Source of the DNA: Planctomycetaceae bacterium | GTDB taxonomy: Bacteria > Planctomycetota > Planctomycetia > Pirellulales > Pirellulaceae | Direction of reading: 5' to 3' | Length of the DNA stretch: 35,735 nt | NCBI GenBank assembly: GCA_018658605.1 | Contig: JABHUV010000262.1 | Location: 1 to 35,735 of the forward strand | Part shown: in pieces, positions 27,919 through 35,735 of the stretch | How the letters are laid out: the number at the start of each line of letters is the position of its first letter | How positions within the stretch are numbered: position 1 is the stretch's first letter | The notes under the pieces: model-generated | The model's database searches: none | What the model was told of the DNA's origin: nothing | The model's input: only the letters and a program-made list of their open reading frames with translations | Translations under genes and position numbers: made by a program

Positions 27919-28085
27919 TGTCCAATACAGAATAAAAAAAACACGAGAGAGCTTTTTCCGGTGGTGACGAGCGACGGTGTCTATGTTACCTTGGGATGTG
28001 CACGATAACCTCTGTTACATGCAACTCTAATAAAACGTGCAAGCCCCTAAATAAAGTAAAAGCGTTACACAGCTTGGAGCGATTA

Positions 28086-28901
28086 ATGGTTCAGTTACCT
28101 GAAGATGACGATTCATTTGTAGATGAACGATGGGAAGAAGTTGACGATGACGATCAAGAATCGGATGTCGAAGACGACCATGATGATAACGATTTGGATT
28201 CCGACGACTACGAAGATGTTGACGATTCGGATACTTCAGATGACGATAATGCTTCAGACGATAATGCTTCAGACGATGAAGATGTCGACGATTCAGATGC
28301 TACAGACGATGATGATGAATATGAATACGAATACGTTGAAGTTGATGAAGATGAAGAACTCGATGACGATGTGGAGTACGAGTACATTGAAGTCGAAGTC
28401 GATGATGACGATGATGACGATGACGAATCACACGACGGTGACACGGATATAGACGACGATGATGACGACGATGATCGTTCCAGCAACAAGGGTCGACGCC
28501 GGTCTCGTGGGCGAGGACGTCGCCATGACGATTCTCGAGGACGAGATTCGGATTCAGACGACGGTCGATCAAGAGATGCCGATGAGGGTGCTGAAGAATC
28601 AGCCGATGAAGAAAAGCCAGAAGAGCCGGAAGAGCCGGAAGAAGAACCGGAAGTCGATATGGGACCGGATCATCCTGATGCAGTTGCTGCTTTGCAGGAT
28701 ATTGGCGCGAGATTGATGATGAATCAATTTGATCGGGTCTTTCGGATTATCTTTTATGAACAACATAAAGATGATGTTTTGGATCAGATTCGGAATTTAC
28801 CGAGTTTGAAAGAGGTCTGGATTATGCATACTAAGATTAAGGAAGATGCTGCAAAAGCGTTAGAAGAACGCCTCGAAGGCGTAAAGGTTTATCATAGCTA
28901 A
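28086..28901 (+). CDS. Highly acidic low-complexity protein with an LRR-like C-terminal cap
   Basis: ATG 28086 is chosen because GGAG lies six bases upstream; the frame is open further up but without a good start. The 271-residue product has no signal peptide. Residues ~6-130 are mostly Asp, Glu and Ser, with a repeated Tyr-rich module (EYEYEYVEV and VEYEYIEVEV). A short basic patch follows at about 132-155 (GRRRSRGRGRR), then more acidic sequence with PEEPEEPEEEPE. The last ~75 residues are ordinary folded sequence, ending NLPSLKEVWIMHTKIKEDAA and LEERLEGVKVYHS, which matches the final repeat and cap of planctomycete LRR proteins (compare the end of the LRR protein at 12941). The function is unknown; the acidic part could bind cations or basic proteins. 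Confidence 0.75.
   Translation: MVQLPEDDDSFVDERWEEVDDDDQESDVEDDHDDNDLDSDDYEDVDDSDTSDDDNASDDNASDDEDVDDSDATDDDDEYEYEYVEVDEDEELDDDVEYEYIEVEVDDDDDDDDESHDGDTDIDDDDDDDDRSSNKGRRRSRGRGRRHDDSRGRDSDSDDGRSRDADEGAEESADEEKPEEPEEPEEEPEVDMGPDHPDAVAALQDIGARLMMNQFDRVFRIIFYEQHKDDVLDQIRNLPSLKEVWIMHTKIKEDAAKALEERLEGVKVYHS
28242..28271 (+). repeat. Tandem 15-bp repeat inside the acidic gene (two exact copies)
   Basis: GACGATAATGCTTCA occurs at 28242-28256 and again at 28257-28271, coding DDNAS twice, with the first six bases repeated once more at 28272. It indicates growth of the acidic region by slippage. Confidence 0.8.
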
Positions 28902-29553: not shown

Positions 29554-31908
29554 TTAATACAATAGAAATGCCTTACGTCTTTGTTGAAAATCTTGTAGTT
29601 CATTATTATACGCTGACCGAATGTCTTGTACGGATGCACCAGCTTTAATGGACTCGTACGTTTGTTGATGACTCAACAGACGATTTAATGATTTTGTTTC
29701 CCAGTGTTCTCCATAAAGTATCCGTAATGCTAAAGCTAATTCCAAGCCGGTCGCTAATGGGTCGAAGGCATCGCGTTCAGTGATCACTAAATTTAAGCCA
29801 CCACAAACCTGACCGCTGAATTTACTGGACTCAGGCGTAAAGTGAATTGGAACAAAGCGAATCCCATTGAGTTTACGAGCATTCATCGCGTTGGCCAGCT
29901 CTCGACCTTGAATATATGGGGCTCCAATTTGTTCAAACGGAGCGTCCGTACCGCGTCCGACGGATAGGTTGGTAGTCTCCAGCAACCCAACACCAGGATA
30001 TAGCAATGCTTGATTTAGGTTACGCATGTTCGGCGACGGATTTACCCACGGCAGGCCCGTGGCATCAAAGAAACTATTGCGCTGCCACCGTGCTAGTTTG
30101 ACAATTTGTAGGTCAAGTTTAAGATCTAACTCGACGTTAAACATATTTGCGAGTTCCCCAGCGGTCATGCCATGGCGGACTGCAACGGGATGGAAACCGA
30201 CAAACGACTCGCTACCTTTATCAAGCACAGGTCCTTGTACAAGCGACCCATTGATTGGGTTGGGGCGATCCAAAACCATGAAATCGATATTGTGATCGGC
30301 AGCCGCTTGCATTGCATTACCCATCGTCGAAATGTATGTGTAAAACCGAGTCCCAATATCTTGGATGTCAAACACGAGTAAATCGATATCAGCGAGCATT
30401 TCAGCAGTAGGTTTGCGTGTTTTGCCGTATAAGCTGTAAATCGGCAAGCCAGATTTAGTGTCTCGTGCATCTTTGATTTGAGCGATATCCAGCTTCCCTT
30501 CAAATCCATGCTCTGGACTAAACAGTGCGACTAAGTCGACATTGGCCGCTGTGTTGAAAAGCTCGACAATACTCACTCCGTCACGGTTGATCCCTGTATG
30601 ATTAGTGATCAAGCCAATACGTTTCCCTTGGAGTTGTTGATACTGGTCACGTTGTAATACATCCAGTCCATTCAGAGTATCACCGACTTGCGCTGTTGCT
30701 CCTTTGTCGTTATCTGTCGAGATTGAAGCTGTTGCAATTGTTGCAATTCGACCAGCCAGTCGGTTTACGGATCCCGATCCATCGGGGTGGACGCGGTTGC
30801 TGAGGAATATAACAAACAGATCTTGGCCTGGGTCTACCCAAAACGTCGTTCCAGTAAATCCCCCATGTCCAAAAGCTTGATCGGTTAGCAAGTCTCCACG
30901 GTTATATGAATAACCAGTACGGATATCCCAACCAAGACCACGTAATCCGCTTGACACTTTATTAGGTTTTGTCATCAAGGCTACCGTTTCTTCTGCGAGT
31001 ACTTGTTTATCTTGATAAGTGCCTTGGCCGAGGAGCATTTGCGCAAAGCGAGCGAGGTCGCTGCTGGTAGAAAACAAACCAGCGTGTCCGGCGATTCCAC
31101 CCAATCGATACGCTCGAGGGTCATGAACTTCGCCTCGCATCCAACGTCCTTCGCGTTGCTGGGTTGTTGCGGCCCGTTTTCGCAGAGCTTCAGAAGGTTT
31201 ATAACCCGTTTCCTGCATTCCTAATGGTTTAAACAAAAACTCTTGCGAGAATTGATGTACGTTTTTTCCCGAAACTCGCTCGACCAATTTCGCTAGCACA
31301 ATAAACCCCACGTCGGTGTACATAAATGTCGTTCCGGGCTCGACGCGCGTCCCTAATGCGTAGATTCGTTCAACGGCTTTGGCCACGCCGTCGTTATAGT
31401 CGCTTAACGCATTATCGGGTAACAATCCACCTTGATGAATCAACAGTTGCCGTACGGTAATTTTGTCTTTCCCATTGACCGCAAACTCAGGGATGTAATG
31501 GGCGACAGTCTGGTCGATATCGATTTTTCCAAGCTCGACTAATTTCATTACGCTTGTTGCCGTAGCAATTGGCTTGGTAATGGACGCCATGTCAAAGACG
31601 GTGTCCGTTGTCATCCCAATCGTTTCTGGTTGTATTTGCTTATCCCCATATGCTTTGTGAAATACAATCTTGCCTTGATAGCCGACCATGACAACGCAAC
31701 CGGGCATCCATTCGCGGCGCAAGCCTTCTGCAACGGCAAGGTCGATTTTGGACAATCGTGTCGCACTCATTCCCACCTCAGCAGGCGCTGCAGCGGGAAC
31801 AGCAGGGACTGCAGCTAACAGCGTTGCCGTGACAAATAGGTTCAGTATTGCTGATAGTGTAACTAAGACAGGCAGTGCATGACGACTTGCAGAATAGTGA
31901 AAGTTCAT
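29554..31908 (-). CDS. Exported fusion of a beta-lactamase-fold (AmiE-like) hydrolase and a NamZ/DUF1343 exo-beta-N-acetylmuramidase
   Basis: The product is 784 residues with a signal peptide (about 1-42). Residues ~45-395 are a serine beta-lactamase-family domain with SITK (S109, K112), YTD (197-199, in the Y-x-N position) and HGG (348-350). Residues ~412-784 are DUF1343, the NamZ (GH171) family: NHTGI 436-440, SPEHG 464-468, DIQDIGTRFYTY 514-525, LDRPNPING 546-554. In Bacillus subtilis, AmiE (YbbE) removes peptides from MurNAc-peptides and NamZ (YbbC) releases terminal MurNAc; they are separate proteins encoded together with murQ. Here both activities would sit in one periplasmic polypeptide, an inference from domains. 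The ATG overlaps the symporter's stop by 4 nt (ATGA). E466 is the candidate catalytic acid by conservation. Beta-lactamase-fold domains can also be esterases or DD-peptidases. Confidence 0.88.
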   Translation of the reverse strand: MNFHYSASRHALPVLVTLSAILNLFVTATLLAAVPAVPAAAPAEVGMSATRLSKIDLAVAEGLRREWMPGCVVMVGYQGKIVFHKAYGDKQIQPETIGMTTDTVFDMASITKPIATATSVMKLVELGKIDIDQTVAHYIPEFAVNGKDKITVRQLLIHQGGLLPDNALSDYNDGVAKAVERIYALGTRVEPGTTFMYTDVGFIVLAKLVERVSGKNVHQFSQEFLFKPLGMQETGYKPSEALRKRAATTQQREGRWMRGEVHDPRAYRLGGIAGHAGLFSTSSDLARFAQMLLGQGTYQDKQVLAEETVALMTKPNKVSSGLRGLGWDIRTGYSYNRGDLLTDQAFGHGGFTGTTFWVDPGQDLFVIFLSNRVHPDGSGSVNRLAGRIATIATASISTDNDKGATAQVGDTLNGLDVLQRDQYQQLQGKRIGLITNHTGINRDGVSIVELFNTAANVDLVALFSPEHGFEGKLDIAQIKDARDTKSGLPIYSLYGKTRKPTAEMLADIDLLVFDIQDIGTRFYTYISTMGNAMQAAADHNIDFMVLDRPNPINGSLVQGPVLDKGSESFVGFHPVAVRHGMTAGELANMFNVELDLKLDLQIVKLARWQRNSFFDATGLPWVNPSPNMRNLNQALLYPGVGLLETTNLSVGRGTDAPFEQIGAPYIQGRELANAMNARKLNGIRFVPIHFTPESSKFSGQVCGGLNLVITERDAFDPLATGLELALALRILYGEHWETKSLNRLLSHQQTYESIKAGASVQDIRSAYNNELQDFQQRRKAFLLY

Positions 31909-33395
31909 AGTTTGGAATCCGGTTGACTGGAATTTGGTTTTGATGAGTTTGTTGATTTAATGAGATAGCTTGCGAGTAGACCTGTTGTGAAGGTGATAAT
32001 TGCACCGATAATCGCAAACCAAGGCCAAGCGATATTGGTTGCAAACTTTACGGTGGTCAAACATACTACACCCGATAGCAAGCCAATGAGAGCGTGGGTT
32101 TGAGTGACTCGCTTCGTATAAACGCCAAGCCCAAAAATACCCAAGAGAATTCCCGCCGCAAATCCAGCGATGGCTAGAGCATCTCCCACGACACTGCGTG
32201 AGACATAGCTAGCGGCAATGCCGAGACAAATCTGCAGTAAGCCAAACGCGACCGTTGTCCAGCGGCTAACTTTTAGAAGTTGCCTATCAGTCGGTTTAGT
32301 GTTTTGAGCAGGTAAGTATAAATCATTGACGACTGCCGAAGCGGACGCGCTGAGTGAACTCGACAGTGTCGACATAGCGGCTGAGAATACGGCGGCGAGT
32401 GTGATGCCGATTAACCCAATGGGCATTTGCTGAATAATGAACGTTGCAAATACCTCATCGGGTCGTTCGAAGGACTGTGCAGGAGTGAGTTGTGAATAGA
32501 ACGCAGCCAAGCCAATGCCGAGAAACAGAAACAGTGCGAACTGAGCGAAAATAACAAAGCCGCTGGCAATCACGGCGCGCTGTGCATCACAAATCCCGCG
32601 ACCGCTTAAATACCGCTGTACCATCATCTGGTCGGTTCCGTGTGTTCCTAGCGATAGCACTGTTCCACCAATCACACCAGCCCAAAAGGTAAAAGTTTCG
32701 GTGACGTCCCAACTAAAATCAAACATCTGTAACTTGTTGTTCGTCTGAGAAAAAGCTGTCATTTCACTCCAGCCGCCAGGTAACAATTGCACCATTATGA
32801 TCCCAGCGGCAATGCCGCCGCCAATATAAACGACAAACTGGATGCAATCATTCCATACGACCGCTTTCATTCCACCAAAGAAGGTGTAAATAATAGTCGC
32901 GATACCAATAATGGTGATCGAAGTGGCTAGATCGAAACCGCAGACTTTCTCTAGTACAATTCCGGTTAAGAATAAACGTAGTCCATCGCCGAGGTTGCGT
33001 GTCAGTAAGAATACTACTGATGCAGTTATCTTTGTTACCCCCCCAAATCGCTTGTCGAGTATTTCATAAGCGCTGAATATTTGGCCTTTGAAAAACTGTG
33101 GAATCAAGATGTAAGCAACTAGGAAGCGACCACATAGAAAGCCAATGACAAGCTGTAGAAATCGCAAATCTCCACCGACCGCAAATGCAATTCCAGGGAC
33201 ACTGAGGAATGTGGCAGTGCTGGTTTCGGTGGCAACGATCGAACCTAAAATGGCCCACCACGGTAGGTTGCGGTCACCAAGTAAGTAACTGGATACGTCC
33301 TTTTGGTCTCGTCCAATCCACAGCCCAAATAACACCACAGCGATGGTGTACGCTGCGATGATGCCTAGATCGATATTTCCAATGGCGAGGTTCAA
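31905..33395 (-). CDS. Sodium:solute symporter (SSS family), likely amino-sugar/MurNAc importer
   Basis: This 496-residue protein has about 13 hydrophobic segments and SSS-family landmarks: SSYLLGDRNLPWWAILGS and VATETSTATFLSVPG near the N-terminus, FGGMKAVVWNDCIQFVVYIGGG near 173-194, and LGTHGTDQMMVQRYLSG near 246-262. The start is TTG at 33395, with no nearby in-frame ATG and only a weak ribosome site, so initiation may be inefficient. Gene order suggests MurNAc (or MurNAc-peptide/GlcNAc) as substrate: it is coupled by a 4-nt overlap to the NamZ fusion and is divergent from murQ. Tannerella forsythia MurT is a precedent for a non-PTS MurNAc importer. SSS proteins also carry sialic acid, glucose or solutes, so specificity is not proven. 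Confidence 0.85.
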   Translation of the reverse strand: MNLAIGNIDLGIIAAYTIAVVLFGLWIGRDQKDVSSYLLGDRNLPWWAILGSIVATETSTATFLSVPGIAFAVGGDLRFLQLVIGFLCGRFLVAYILIPQFFKGQIFSAYEILDKRFGGVTKITASVVFLLTRNLGDGLRLFLTGIVLEKVCGFDLATSITIIGIATIIYTFFGGMKAVVWNDCIQFVVYIGGGIAAGIIMVQLLPGGWSEMTAFSQTNNKLQMFDFSWDVTETFTFWAGVIGGTVLSLGTHGTDQMMVQRYLSGRGICDAQRAVIASGFVIFAQFALFLFLGIGLAAFYSQLTPAQSFERPDEVFATFIIQQMPIGLIGITLAAVFSAAMSTLSSSLSASASAVVNDLYLPAQNTKPTDRQLLKVSRWTTVAFGLLQICLGIAASYVSRSVVGDALAIAGFAAGILLGIFGLGVYTKRVTQTHALIGLLSGVVCLTTVKFATNIAWPWFAIIGAIITFTTGLLASYLIKSTNSSKPNSSQPDSKL

Positions 33396-33516
33396 ATTTG
33401 TTTATTACCGAAAACGTGAGAATGGAGCAGTGCTGTTTTACGTTTGTAATCCTACTATACTTGTATATACGACGTTTACAGTAAGACGATGATATGTTTG
33501 CCATTTTGGATGGTTC
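33396..33516. promoter_or_regulatory. Shared divergent promoter region of the MurNAc cluster
   Basis: These 121 bp separate the symporter (minus strand) and murQ (plus strand), so both promoters must lie here or overlap. At 33456-33467 there is an inverted repeat, TATAC-TT-GTATA. Its left half gives a -10-like TATACT on the plus strand, and neighbouring bases give TATATA on the minus strand. No good -35 was found for either direction. No MurR/RpiR-type regulator gene is in the window. An operator here is inference only. Confidence 0.35.
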
Positions 33517-34443
33517 ATGACCGCACAACAAGACCCCTCAAAAAACCAGATTCGACAACTGACGACCGAATCACGTAATGCGGCGTCCATGGGCATTGAC
33601 GAATTGTCGCCACTGGAAATTGTTCATTTAATGGTGGATGAAGATCGCACTATTGCGGATGCTGTGGAATTAGAAGCGACATCAATTGCTGCTGCGATTG
33701 ATGTGATTGCGAGGCAATTAAAAATCGGAGGGCGTTTGATATATATGGGTGCAGGTACATCTGGACGATTAGGTGTACTCGATGCAAGTGAATGTCCACC
33801 GACGTTTAGCACACCACCAGAATGGGTTGTTGGTTTGGTTGCCGGTGGGTATGACGCGTTAACACGTGCCATCGAAGGCGCCGAAGATTATCCAGAGCAG
33901 GGAGTACAGGCTTTACGCGAAATTGAATTGACGGATCAGGACGTTGTCGTGGGAATTGCAACGAGCGGGAGGACTCCGTACGTCATTGGTGGGCTAGAAT
34001 TTGCGCAATCGCTCGGAGCATTTACAATTGGCTTTTGCTGTAATCAAGATTCGCCGTTGGCGGAGATCGCAGATTTGATGATCGTACCAGTCGTTGGTCC
34101 CGAAGTCGTAAGTGGCTCGACGCGACTCAAGGCGGGAACCGCAACGAAGATGGTGTTGAATATGTTAACGACTGGCGCGATGGTCCGTCTGGGAAAAACA
34201 TATGGCAACTTAATGGTGGATTTAAGTGCTACCAATGAAAAACTCGCTATTCGATCATGTAATATTGTCATGGAGTTGAGCGGGTTGCAGCGTCAGGAAG
34301 CACAGGTAGTTCTGGATCGTTGTGCAGGTGAGTTGAAAACCGCCATTGTTACGGCGAAATGTGATGTGTCCCCAGACGTTGCTCGACAGCGATTAAGTCG
34401 TGCGGATAATCACCTCCGAGCGGCTCTGGAGACAGACGAGTGA
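33517..34443 (+). CDS. murQ: N-acetylmuramic acid 6-phosphate etherase
   Basis: This 308-residue cytosolic SIS-domain enzyme removes the D-lactyl ether from MurNAc-6-phosphate, giving GlcNAc-6-phosphate and D-lactate (EC 4.2.1.126). The sequence matches the family throughout: GAGTSGRLGVLDASECPPTF (78-97), EGAED (120-124), IATSGRTPYVIGGL and SGSTRLKAGTATKMVLNML. E92 and E123 correspond by position to the catalytic Glu83 and Glu114 described for the Escherichia coli enzyme. Length is normal (about 300). The kinase gene overlaps its stop by 4 nt. The substrate MurNAc-6-phosphate normally comes from a PTS (MurP), from AnmK, or from a MurK-type kinase; only the last is nearby here. Confidence 0.96.
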   Translation: MTAQQDPSKNQIRQLTTESRNAASMGIDELSPLEIVHLMVDEDRTIADAVELEATSIAAAIDVIARQLKIGGRLIYMGAGTSGRLGVLDASECPPTFSTPPEWVVGLVAGGYDALTRAIEGAEDYPEQGVQALREIELTDQDVVVGIATSGRTPYVIGGLEFAQSLGAFTIGFCCNQDSPLAEIADLMIVPVVGPEVVSGSTRLKAGTATKMVLNMLTTGAMVRLGKTYGNLMVDLSATNEKLAIRSCNIVMELSGLQRQEAQVVLDRCAGELKTAIVTAKCDVSPDVARQRLSRADNHLRAALETDE

Positions 34444-35333
34444 CGGAGAATCAACAGCGGGTAATTTTGGGTGTCGATGGAGGGGGAACTAAGACTCGTG
34501 CTTGGATAGCACTCGTGACGACGCCCGATACTTTTAAAGTAATTGGCAAGGGCCTTGCGGGGCCATCCAATGTGCAAACGGACGATTCGATTGAGGCACT
34601 TGCGAATATACAGCACGCGGTAGATGCTGCAAAAGCAGATGCCGGTCTCGTTGTCGAGCAATGTGAAATTGTTGCTGGTTGCTTGGCGCTAGCTGGATCT
34701 GGCACTGAAACATCTCAAGCATTGATCAATGGTTGGGCAGCGCATGTCCAATTGGCTAAAAAAGTGATAGTGACACATGATGCCATGGCGGTATTATATG
34801 CAGCGAACTATAAAGGAGTAGGAGTCGCATTGATTGCTGGTACTGGCTCGATTGCGTTCGGACGCAACAGAAATGAACAAACTGCACGTTGTGGCGGATT
34901 GGGGCCTAACAACAGTGATGCTGGCAGTGGCTATGCGATTACAATGGCTGCGCTAAAAGCTGGACTAGAATCCGCTGGTGTTGCAATTCCCAACTCTCAA
35001 CAGATCGCAGATATGCAGCGATGTGAGATCGCTGCTTTGGCGCCGCTGGTTTTTCAAGCGAGTGATGCTGGGGATGAGCAAGCAACTGCTGTTGTTTCCG
35101 CTGCGGCACATGATTTAGCAAATTTGGTCATCAATGTTGCCGAGGAATTAGAGTTGGCCGGCAGGTTGTTTACGCTGGGCCTAGCCGGAGGTGTGTTGAT
35201 TCATCGTGGCGATGTGCGAGCTCAAATCATGAGCGAATTATCAACCCACGGTCTAACGCCTTCAGCTGTTGCAATCGCAGATCCTGTTATGGGAGCATTG
35301 CAATTAGCGCTGCGGTCGCTGAATCACGTATGA
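34440..35333 (+). CDS. BadF/NagK-family sugar kinase, probable MurNAc/GlcNAc kinase (MurK-like)
   Basis: This 297-residue protein belongs to the BadF/BadG/BcrA/BcrD ASKHA family that includes N-acetylglucosamine kinases and Clostridium MurK. It has phosphate-1 loop DGGGTK (13-18), likely catalytic Asp in THDA (D114), AGTGS (133-137) and a late SD.GSGYAI segment (159-167). The usual GDEGSG is here SDAGSG, a change worth noting. The start is GTG 34440, sharing GTGA with the murQ stop; GGAG lies eight bases upstream. Phosphorylating imported MurNAc (and perhaps GlcNAc) to the 6-phosphate would feed MurQ directly, and coupling supports this; sugar specificity cannot be read from sequence. Confidence 0.85.
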   Translation: MTENQQRVILGVDGGGTKTRAWIALVTTPDTFKVIGKGLAGPSNVQTDDSIEALANIQHAVDAAKADAGLVVEQCEIVAGCLALAGSGTETSQALINGWAAHVQLAKKVIVTHDAMAVLYAANYKGVGVALIAGTGSIAFGRNRNEQTARCGGLGPNNSDAGSGYAITMAALKAGLESAGVAIPNSQQIADMQRCEIAALAPLVFQASDAGDEQATAVVSAAAHDLANLVINVAEELELAGRLFTLGLAGGVLIHRGDVRAQIMSELSTHGLTPSAVAIADPVMGALQLALRSLNHV

Positions 35334-35381: not shown

Positions 35382-35735
35382 TCACTGAGCGGCAGCTTCG
35401 TTGTTTGATATCTTTCGCAAGCTCAACAGATATGCAATGACATCGGCTAGTTCACTTTCTGTCAGTGCTTTGTCGAGTCCATTAGGCATAATAGAAATTG
35501 TCCCGGCGACCATCTCATCGATGTTTTTGCGCAGCAGGGTAATGGGCTCCCCCGTTTGTTGCTGAATGGTAACACTGTCGGTAGTCTGTCGAACAATCAA
35601 GCCAGCGAGGACTCGCCCATCGTTGGTAATTATATTGTAAGGTTCGAAGTCACGGACGATGGTGGACGAAGGGAGCACGATTGATTCGAGCAGATCATGG
35701 CCGGCCCGATTGGCTCCGATGGTTGTTAGGTCCGG
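35382..35735 (-). CDS. C-terminal part of a PVC-type haem-binding protein (TIGR02603-like), 5' truncated by the window
   Basis: The frame is open to the window edge, giving 117 residues, so the internal GTG at 35678 is unlikely to be the start. The sequence PDLTTIGANRAGHDLLESIV, then DGRVLAGLIVRQTTDSVTI, IDEMVAGTISIMPNGLDKAL and ELADVIAYLLSLR, is the typical tail of the planctomycete and verrucomicrobial 'putative haem-binding domain'. The CXXCH motif normally lies a few dozen residues earlier, outside the window. Full proteins are often over 900 residues with NHL/glucose-dehydrogenase-like propellers. It converges with the kinase gene over a 48-bp spacer. Confidence 0.87.
   Translation of the reverse strand, partial: PDLTTIGANRAGHDLLESIVLPSSTIVRDFEPYNIITNDGRVLAGLIVRQTTDSVTIQQQTGEPITLLRKNIDEMVAGTISIMPNGLDKALTESELADVIAYLLSLRKISNNEAAAQ

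Follow-up and report, generated by a model that had tools for sequence, protein, structure and literature searches.

A divergent planctomycete gene cluster predicted to salvage MurNAc without a PTS

Could a planctomycete take up and use MurNAc without a PTS? The question is raised by four adjoining genes in a 35,735-nucleotide stretch of DNA from a Planctomycetaceae bacterium (contig JABHUV010000262.1; hereafter the window), which a sequence-only reading had described as a full MurNAc salvage route. Planctomycete peptidoglycan (e.g. that of Rhodopirellula baltica) was demonstrated in 2015, with C. acetobutylicum MurK as a reagent, according to the available portion of PMC4432640. No description of a planctomycete cluster for recycling or consumption of MurNAc or peptidoglycan was found in the literature searched, which covered few subscription papers; in the portions available, one article refers to plasmid-borne clusters with MurNAc-6-P etherase in MAGs from the sea (PMC11123730), and another, a community survey, lists both the etherase and Planctomycetota but draws no connection between them (PMC11298437).

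Gene content of the locus

The four genes claimed were all found as open reading frames, with family scores far above the cut-offs, and were arranged as follows:

29554-31908, minus strand: predicted exported two-enzyme fusion (S12/NamZ), 784 aa (ORF list and Pfam)
31905-31908, minus strand: ATGA stop/start overlap of 4 nt, symporter to fusion (sequence reading)
31905-33395, minus strand: SSS-family sodium symporter, 496 aa, TTG start
33396-33516, no strand: divergent intergenic gap of 121 bp, presumed to hold both promoters
33517-34443, plus strand: MurQ, MurNAc-6-phosphate etherase, 308 aa (TIGR00274 and match to a solved MurQ)
34440-34443, plus strand: GTGA stop/start overlap of 4 nt, murQ to kinase (sequence reading)
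34440-35333, plus strand: BadF-type sugar kinase, predicted MurNAc/GlcNAc 6-kinase of the C. acetobutylicum MurK type, 297 aa, GTG start

The 4-nt overlaps claimed for both strands were thus confirmed (ATGA for the symporter-fusion pair, GTGA for the murQ-kinase pair). The four families of the claimed full route are present, whereas the route itself stops at GlcNAc-6-P. Pfam scans of 23 window ORFs gave no NagA, NagB, NagZ or regulator domain, and tblastn gave no match to AnmK or NagB-PIG-L within the window.

Proteins with PSCyt1, PSCyt2, PSD1 and DUF1501 domains (Pfam) are also encoded in the window and, together with the 92% match of the fusion to a Pirellulaceae protein noted below, support its planctomycete origin. 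A further protein, of 301 aa (27996-28901), matched no Pfam family and contains a very long low-complexity run rich in Asp and Glu. Beside the kinase lies an ORF truncated at the window end (35382-35735, minus strand), which had no Pfam match, is not AnmK by tblastn and by eye resembles the C-terminal end of a haem-binding protein of planctomycetes; in many relatives this slot is held by AnmK.

The fusion has a hydrophobic N-terminal leader (judged by eye), a domain of the S12/class-C beta-lactamase fold (approximately residues 58-385; PF00144, 244.6 bits) and the NamZ_N and NamZ_C domains at residues 431-784 (PF07075, 284.5 bits, and PF20732, 163 bits, above cut-off). S12 amidases carry the motif set SxxK, YxN-like and HxG; the N-terminal domain contains S109-x-x-K112 (S109ITK), Y197-T-D and H348-G-G and has the fold and motifs of an AmiE-type enzyme. 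Its top NCBIfam match was PBP4B (PRK03642), with a score of 187.8 against a cut-off of 385. All three domains were annotated in each of the 120 relatives listed (7861 matches were found), with identities of up to 93% among the matches listed, and a partial fusion protein from a source named Pirellulaceae bacterium (P0255) was 92% identical. The fusion is predicted to be exported and to have both amidase and exo-beta-N-acetylmuramidase activities. A 1041-aa protein of eukaryote source (P0317), in which PF00474 is joined with the S12-NamZ domains, probably stems from contaminating bacterial DNA and the merging of gene models; at one related locus (L143; G147:C561) a second NamZ gene adjoins the fusion.

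MurQ was assigned by the equivalog model TIGR00274 (385.1 against a cut-off of 302, residues 15-305) and by its match to the solved MurQ 4s12 (E 7.1e-93).

Predicted specificity of the kinase

The kinase belongs to the BcrAD/BadFG family (PF01869, 100 bits). The nearest fold was that of C. acetobutylicum MurK (8zo3; 29% identity over 284 aligned residues), followed by NagK, and the sole NCBIfam match was to the GlcNAc kinase NagK_SO3507, at 85.6 against a cut-off of 370. The BadF fold, the catalytic Asp and the sugar-binding Asp expected of a MurK are all present. Among 54 kinases from the 58 related MurQ loci described below (those scoring at least 150 bits), catalytic Asp114 was kept in 53 and Asp160 in all 54. 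The predicted lactyl pocket of the window kinase (G152-G153-L154) is small. His113 occupies the position of Thr94 in T. forsythia MurK, where the residue varies across the 54 relatives. According to the paper on that enzyme, MurNAc could no longer bind if Thr94 were replaced by Asn or His, yet C. acetobutylicum MurK, whose activity on MurNAc is proven, carries Asn here (alignment as read). An E-to-A change in the GDEGS motif, together with a short loop, was considered as an oddity and dismissed, since position 161 is variable (E in 37 of 54).

The kinase is predicted, from fold and residues, to be a MurNAc/GlcNAc 6-kinase of the MurK type. In an alternative reading, symporter and kinase primarily serve GlcNAc, or both peptidoglycan sugars, and MurQ receives MurNAc-6-P that is a side-product or made by AnmK. 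Such a role would fit the nearness to NagK in fold and in the sub-cut-off NCBIfam match, as well as the activity of C. acetobutylicum MurK on both MurNAc and GlcNAc, as given in the available parts of PMC4432640 and PMC10465942; the distribution of the genes in relatives, described below, argues against it.

Sodium and substrate sites of the symporter

The symporter scored 151.6 bits with PF00474 and 228.9 with TIGR00813 (cut-off 184), which places it in the SSS superfamily, and its closest solved relative was the sialic acid symporter SiaT of Proteus mirabilis (5nv9). Ligand- and sodium-site residues of SiaT, taken from the available part of PMC5931594, were mapped onto it. The residues of the Na2 site (A55, A339, S342, T343) and of the Na3 site (D183, S345, S346) were kept, each in 40 to 46 of 46 related symporters (those from the 58 loci scoring at least 450 bits), as were the equivalents of SiaT Arg260, Ser60 and Thr63 in the window symporter. 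Sodium coupling is likely, given that both sodium sites and Arg260 are conserved.

Three substrate positions differ from SiaT (T58 to E57, Q82 to V83 and the carboxylate-binding R135 to G136), and SiaT-like carboxylate recognition was rejected because Arg135 is not retained. Invariant in all 46 symporters were E57, S59, T62, R133, D137, R140, H252 and D255. Helix arithmetic would place R133 and R140 on the same face of TM3 as SiaT Arg135, where they might contact the ligand; this would suit an acidic sugar without proving one. That the symporter is a chance neighbour with sialic acid or another unrelated anion as its substrate, as its best solved sequence relative might suggest, appears highly improbable in view of the loss of Arg135 and Gln82 and of the co-occurrence of symporter and MurQ across genomes (55 with both, 88 with neither). 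We infer that it is a MurNAc importer, which perhaps accepts anhydroMurNAc too.

Conservation of the arrangement in relatives

A 23-row kinase alignment was used to scan species genomes, and the best 80 of 502 loci were analysed by tblastn. The symporter was divergent from MurQ-kinase in, among others, Adhaeretor mobilis (L003), with S12 and NamZ present, in a Gimesia MAG (L005), with S12-NamZ not alongside, and in Botrimarina hoheduenensis (L069), with S12 but without NamZ; in an Acidobacteria MAG (L065) all five domains lay within one locus. Six Acidobacteria and Gemmatimonadota genomes (L042, L044, L063, L070, L054, L067) had a symporter-kinase pair with no adjoining MurQ and approximately 40% symporter identity. 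Such pairs favour a GlcNAc-first role, but all six genomes have MurQ elsewhere. A related kinase was also present in G165 (locus L001), where MurQ was not found.

As a kinase-anchored scan is biased, MurQ was used as the anchor in a second sample of 147 genomes from the order of A. mobilis (G002), which we take to be Pirellulales. MurQ scored over the cut-off in 58 of the 147, and up to approximately 20 kb around each locus was examined, several stretches ending at contig edges. The kinase lay 3' of MurQ on the same strand at 51 of the 58 loci and in the same frame at five, and was absent from two. One of the five (L136) is truncated by a contig end and gave a kinase match of only 23 bits; in another (L159) the coordinates place MurQ before the kinase, and a protein from a source named Pirellulales bacterium (P0054) likewise has both in one frame. 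The symporter was divergent at 45 loci, co-directional at one and missing from the examined stretch at 12. S12 and NamZ shared a frame at 34 loci, with NamZ only at three, S12 only at six and neither at 15. The complete arrangement of the window was seen at 31 of the 58 loci. The main refuting condition set by the sequence-only reading, clustering conserved in no relative, was contradicted by synteny (kinase adjacent or in frame at 56 of 58, divergent symporter at 45 of 58), and the recurrence of the cluster in many relatives is beyond chance.

Loci without a divergent symporter showed no consistent replacement transporter in the ORF list and a simple hydropathy count. Upstream ORFs of approximately 1340-1380 aa with 15 predicted TM segments (L146, L148, L161), presumably SecDF-like, were discounted as unrelated. 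At two loci (L120, L124) MurQ stood without kinase and symporter, with AnmK beside it, and the kinase and symporter lay head to head approximately 20-25 kb away.

Genome-wide co-occurrence

Each component was then counted across the 147 genomes, using thresholds of our choice for the kinase type (E 1e-30) and symporter type (E 1e-80), with weaker paralogues left out. The kinase type was found in 58 genomes, the symporter type in 56, NamZ in 62, AnmK in 58 and PTS_EIIC in seven. MurQ and kinase occurred together in 57 genomes and were both missing from 88, with one discordance each way, both at contig ends (G041, G070). For the symporter, MurQ alone was found in three genomes and the symporter alone in one, which, as for the kinase, comes near to a one-to-one association with MurQ; for NamZ, 55 genomes had both, 82 neither, three MurQ only and seven NamZ only. 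Fisher values for these associations ignore shared ancestry. MurQ, kinase, symporter and NamZ were found together in 51 of the 147 genomes.

PTS independence also held in the relatives, as 56 of the 58 MurQ genomes lacked PTS_EIIC, the two occurring together in only two genomes. In 17 of the 58, no match was found to AnmK or to PTS EIIC, leaving the kinase as the sole predicted source of the MurQ substrate there. This argues against a GlcNAc-first role, as does the near absence of the symporter and kinase types from MurQ-less genomes (one of 89 for each, namely G070, where both lie near contig starts), and we consider that role rather unlikely.

Six genomes (G086, G073, G144, G113, G133, G137) had sub-cut-off MurQ matches, in which frames of approximately 600-660 aa matched weakly in two pieces; five of these MurQ-less genomes (all except G086) also had NamZ and AnmK matches. 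At a guess, the frames encode a double-SIS glucokinase-regulator-like protein, which may be an alternative etherase.

AnmK and the fate of GlcNAc-6-P

MurQ and AnmK occurred together in 40 genomes, with neither in 71 and 18 discordant each way. Strong AnmK matches (E 2e-79 or better) were found in 31 genomes, all of which have MurQ, and AnmK lay within 29 of the 58 MurQ loci, on the opposite strand in 27 and at most 4 kb downstream in 26. This linkage might suggest that the symporter takes anhydroMurNAc or a disaccharide instead of free MurNAc, the module then serving lytic-transglycosylase products. Such a reading appears unlikely, since an AnmK match is absent from 18 of the 58 MurQ genomes and from the window, AnmK is a less constant partner than the BadF kinase, and the exported NamZ would yield free MurNAc.

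NagB was above the cut-off in 134 of the 147 genomes. A NagA presence test (TIGR00221) was discarded, as some match was found in 142 of 147 genomes and a match above the cut-off in four. A NagB-PIG-L fusion (PRK02122, 1031 bits; PF01182 and PF02585) lay between symporter and MurQ in L154 (10781-12745), the only such case in the 58 loci, and directly 5' of the symporter-kinase pair in two Gemmatimonadota MAGs (L054, 233-2062; L067, 1-714). Its position hints at further processing of GlcNAc-6-P, in which this deaminase-deacetylase may stand in for NagA.

Proposed pathway

The cluster is very probably a PTS-independent MurNAc salvage module. The AmiE/PBP4B-like domain of the exported fusion would remove stem peptides from MurNAc, and the NamZ domain would free non-reducing-end MurNAc from glycan fragments. 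Free MurNAc would be moved across the inner membrane by the sodium symporter, converted to MurNAc-6-P by the MurK-type kinase and cleaved by MurQ to D-lactate and GlcNAc-6-P, which would enter glycolysis or the pool of amino sugars; AnmK, next door in approximately half of the related loci, would supply anhydroMurNAc to the same MurQ step. Counting against this model are the three of 58 MurQ genomes without a symporter at the threshold, the 12 of 58 loci without one, the seven genomes with NamZ and no MurQ, a symporter pocket that differs from that of SiaT, His113, and the acceptance of GlcNAc by MurK-type kinases.

Presence in 58 of the 147 genomes shows an accessory function, leaning to nutrient use, and the AnmK linkage, seen at every second locus, tips the balance toward the handling of turnover products; self-recycling and feeding on foreign walls are both plausible purposes. 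A broader scheme, speculative and in our estimation doubtful, would give planctomycetes a self-contained PTS-free and possibly NagA-free pathway consisting of the exported amidase-muramidase fusion, one sodium symporter for MurNAc and anhydroMurNAc, a MurK-type kinase with AnmK, MurQ (sometimes kinase-fused) and a deacetylating and deaminating NagB-PIG-L, with patchy presence reflecting a diet mainly of other bacteria's walls.

As a conserved module, with its four parts in 51 of 147 genomes, the cluster makes planctomycete recycling or feeding testable in cultured species, Adhaeretor mobilis among them. It also provides an SSS subfamily with a candidate substrate and many natural MurNAc kinases for comparison with MurK.

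Comparison with known systems

For the comparison, we take B. subtilis ybbC to be NamZ and AmiE to have the S12 fold. The two precedents named by the sequence-only reading proved apt, as far as the available parts of the sources describe them. T. forsythia murT-murK-murQ, part of a nine-gene non-PTS peptidoglycan recycling unit (PMC5790795, PMC7670621), shares with the window a sodium-symporter-superfamily transporter, a BadF-family kinase, MurQ and the lack of a PTS. The B. subtilis murQ-murR-murP-amiE-nagZ-ybbC cluster, with PTS uptake (PMC5061867), likewise pairs MurQ with two extracytoplasmic enzymes, an AmiE-type amidase and NamZ. It differs in having the PTS protein MurP, MurR, NagZ and separate enzymes, whereas the window has a symporter and a kinase, joins the AmiE-like domain to NamZ in a single protein and, across the 23 ORFs scanned, showed neither a MurR-like nor a NagZ domain.

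In E. coli, murQ-murP-yfeW (PBP4B) with a divergent murR and PTS uptake (PMC5061867) resembles the window in that MurQ is near PBP4B, the best, sub-cut-off match of the window's S12 domain; the operon as described there has PTS uptake, no kinase and no NamZ, unlike the window. C. acetobutylicum MurK is nearest to the window kinase in both fold and sequence, yet at 29% identity over 284 residues, and P. mirabilis SiaT (5nv9) shares the SSS family, Na2/Na3 and Ser60/Thr63, while its Neu5Ac-binding Arg135 and Gln82 are missing from the window. Judged by its sequence, the window would work like a T. forsythia-like set joined to fused extracellular enzymes of the B. subtilis type and a kinase of the C. 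acetobutylicum type; a sodium symporter and a BadF kinase may here have been recruited for MurNAc a second time.
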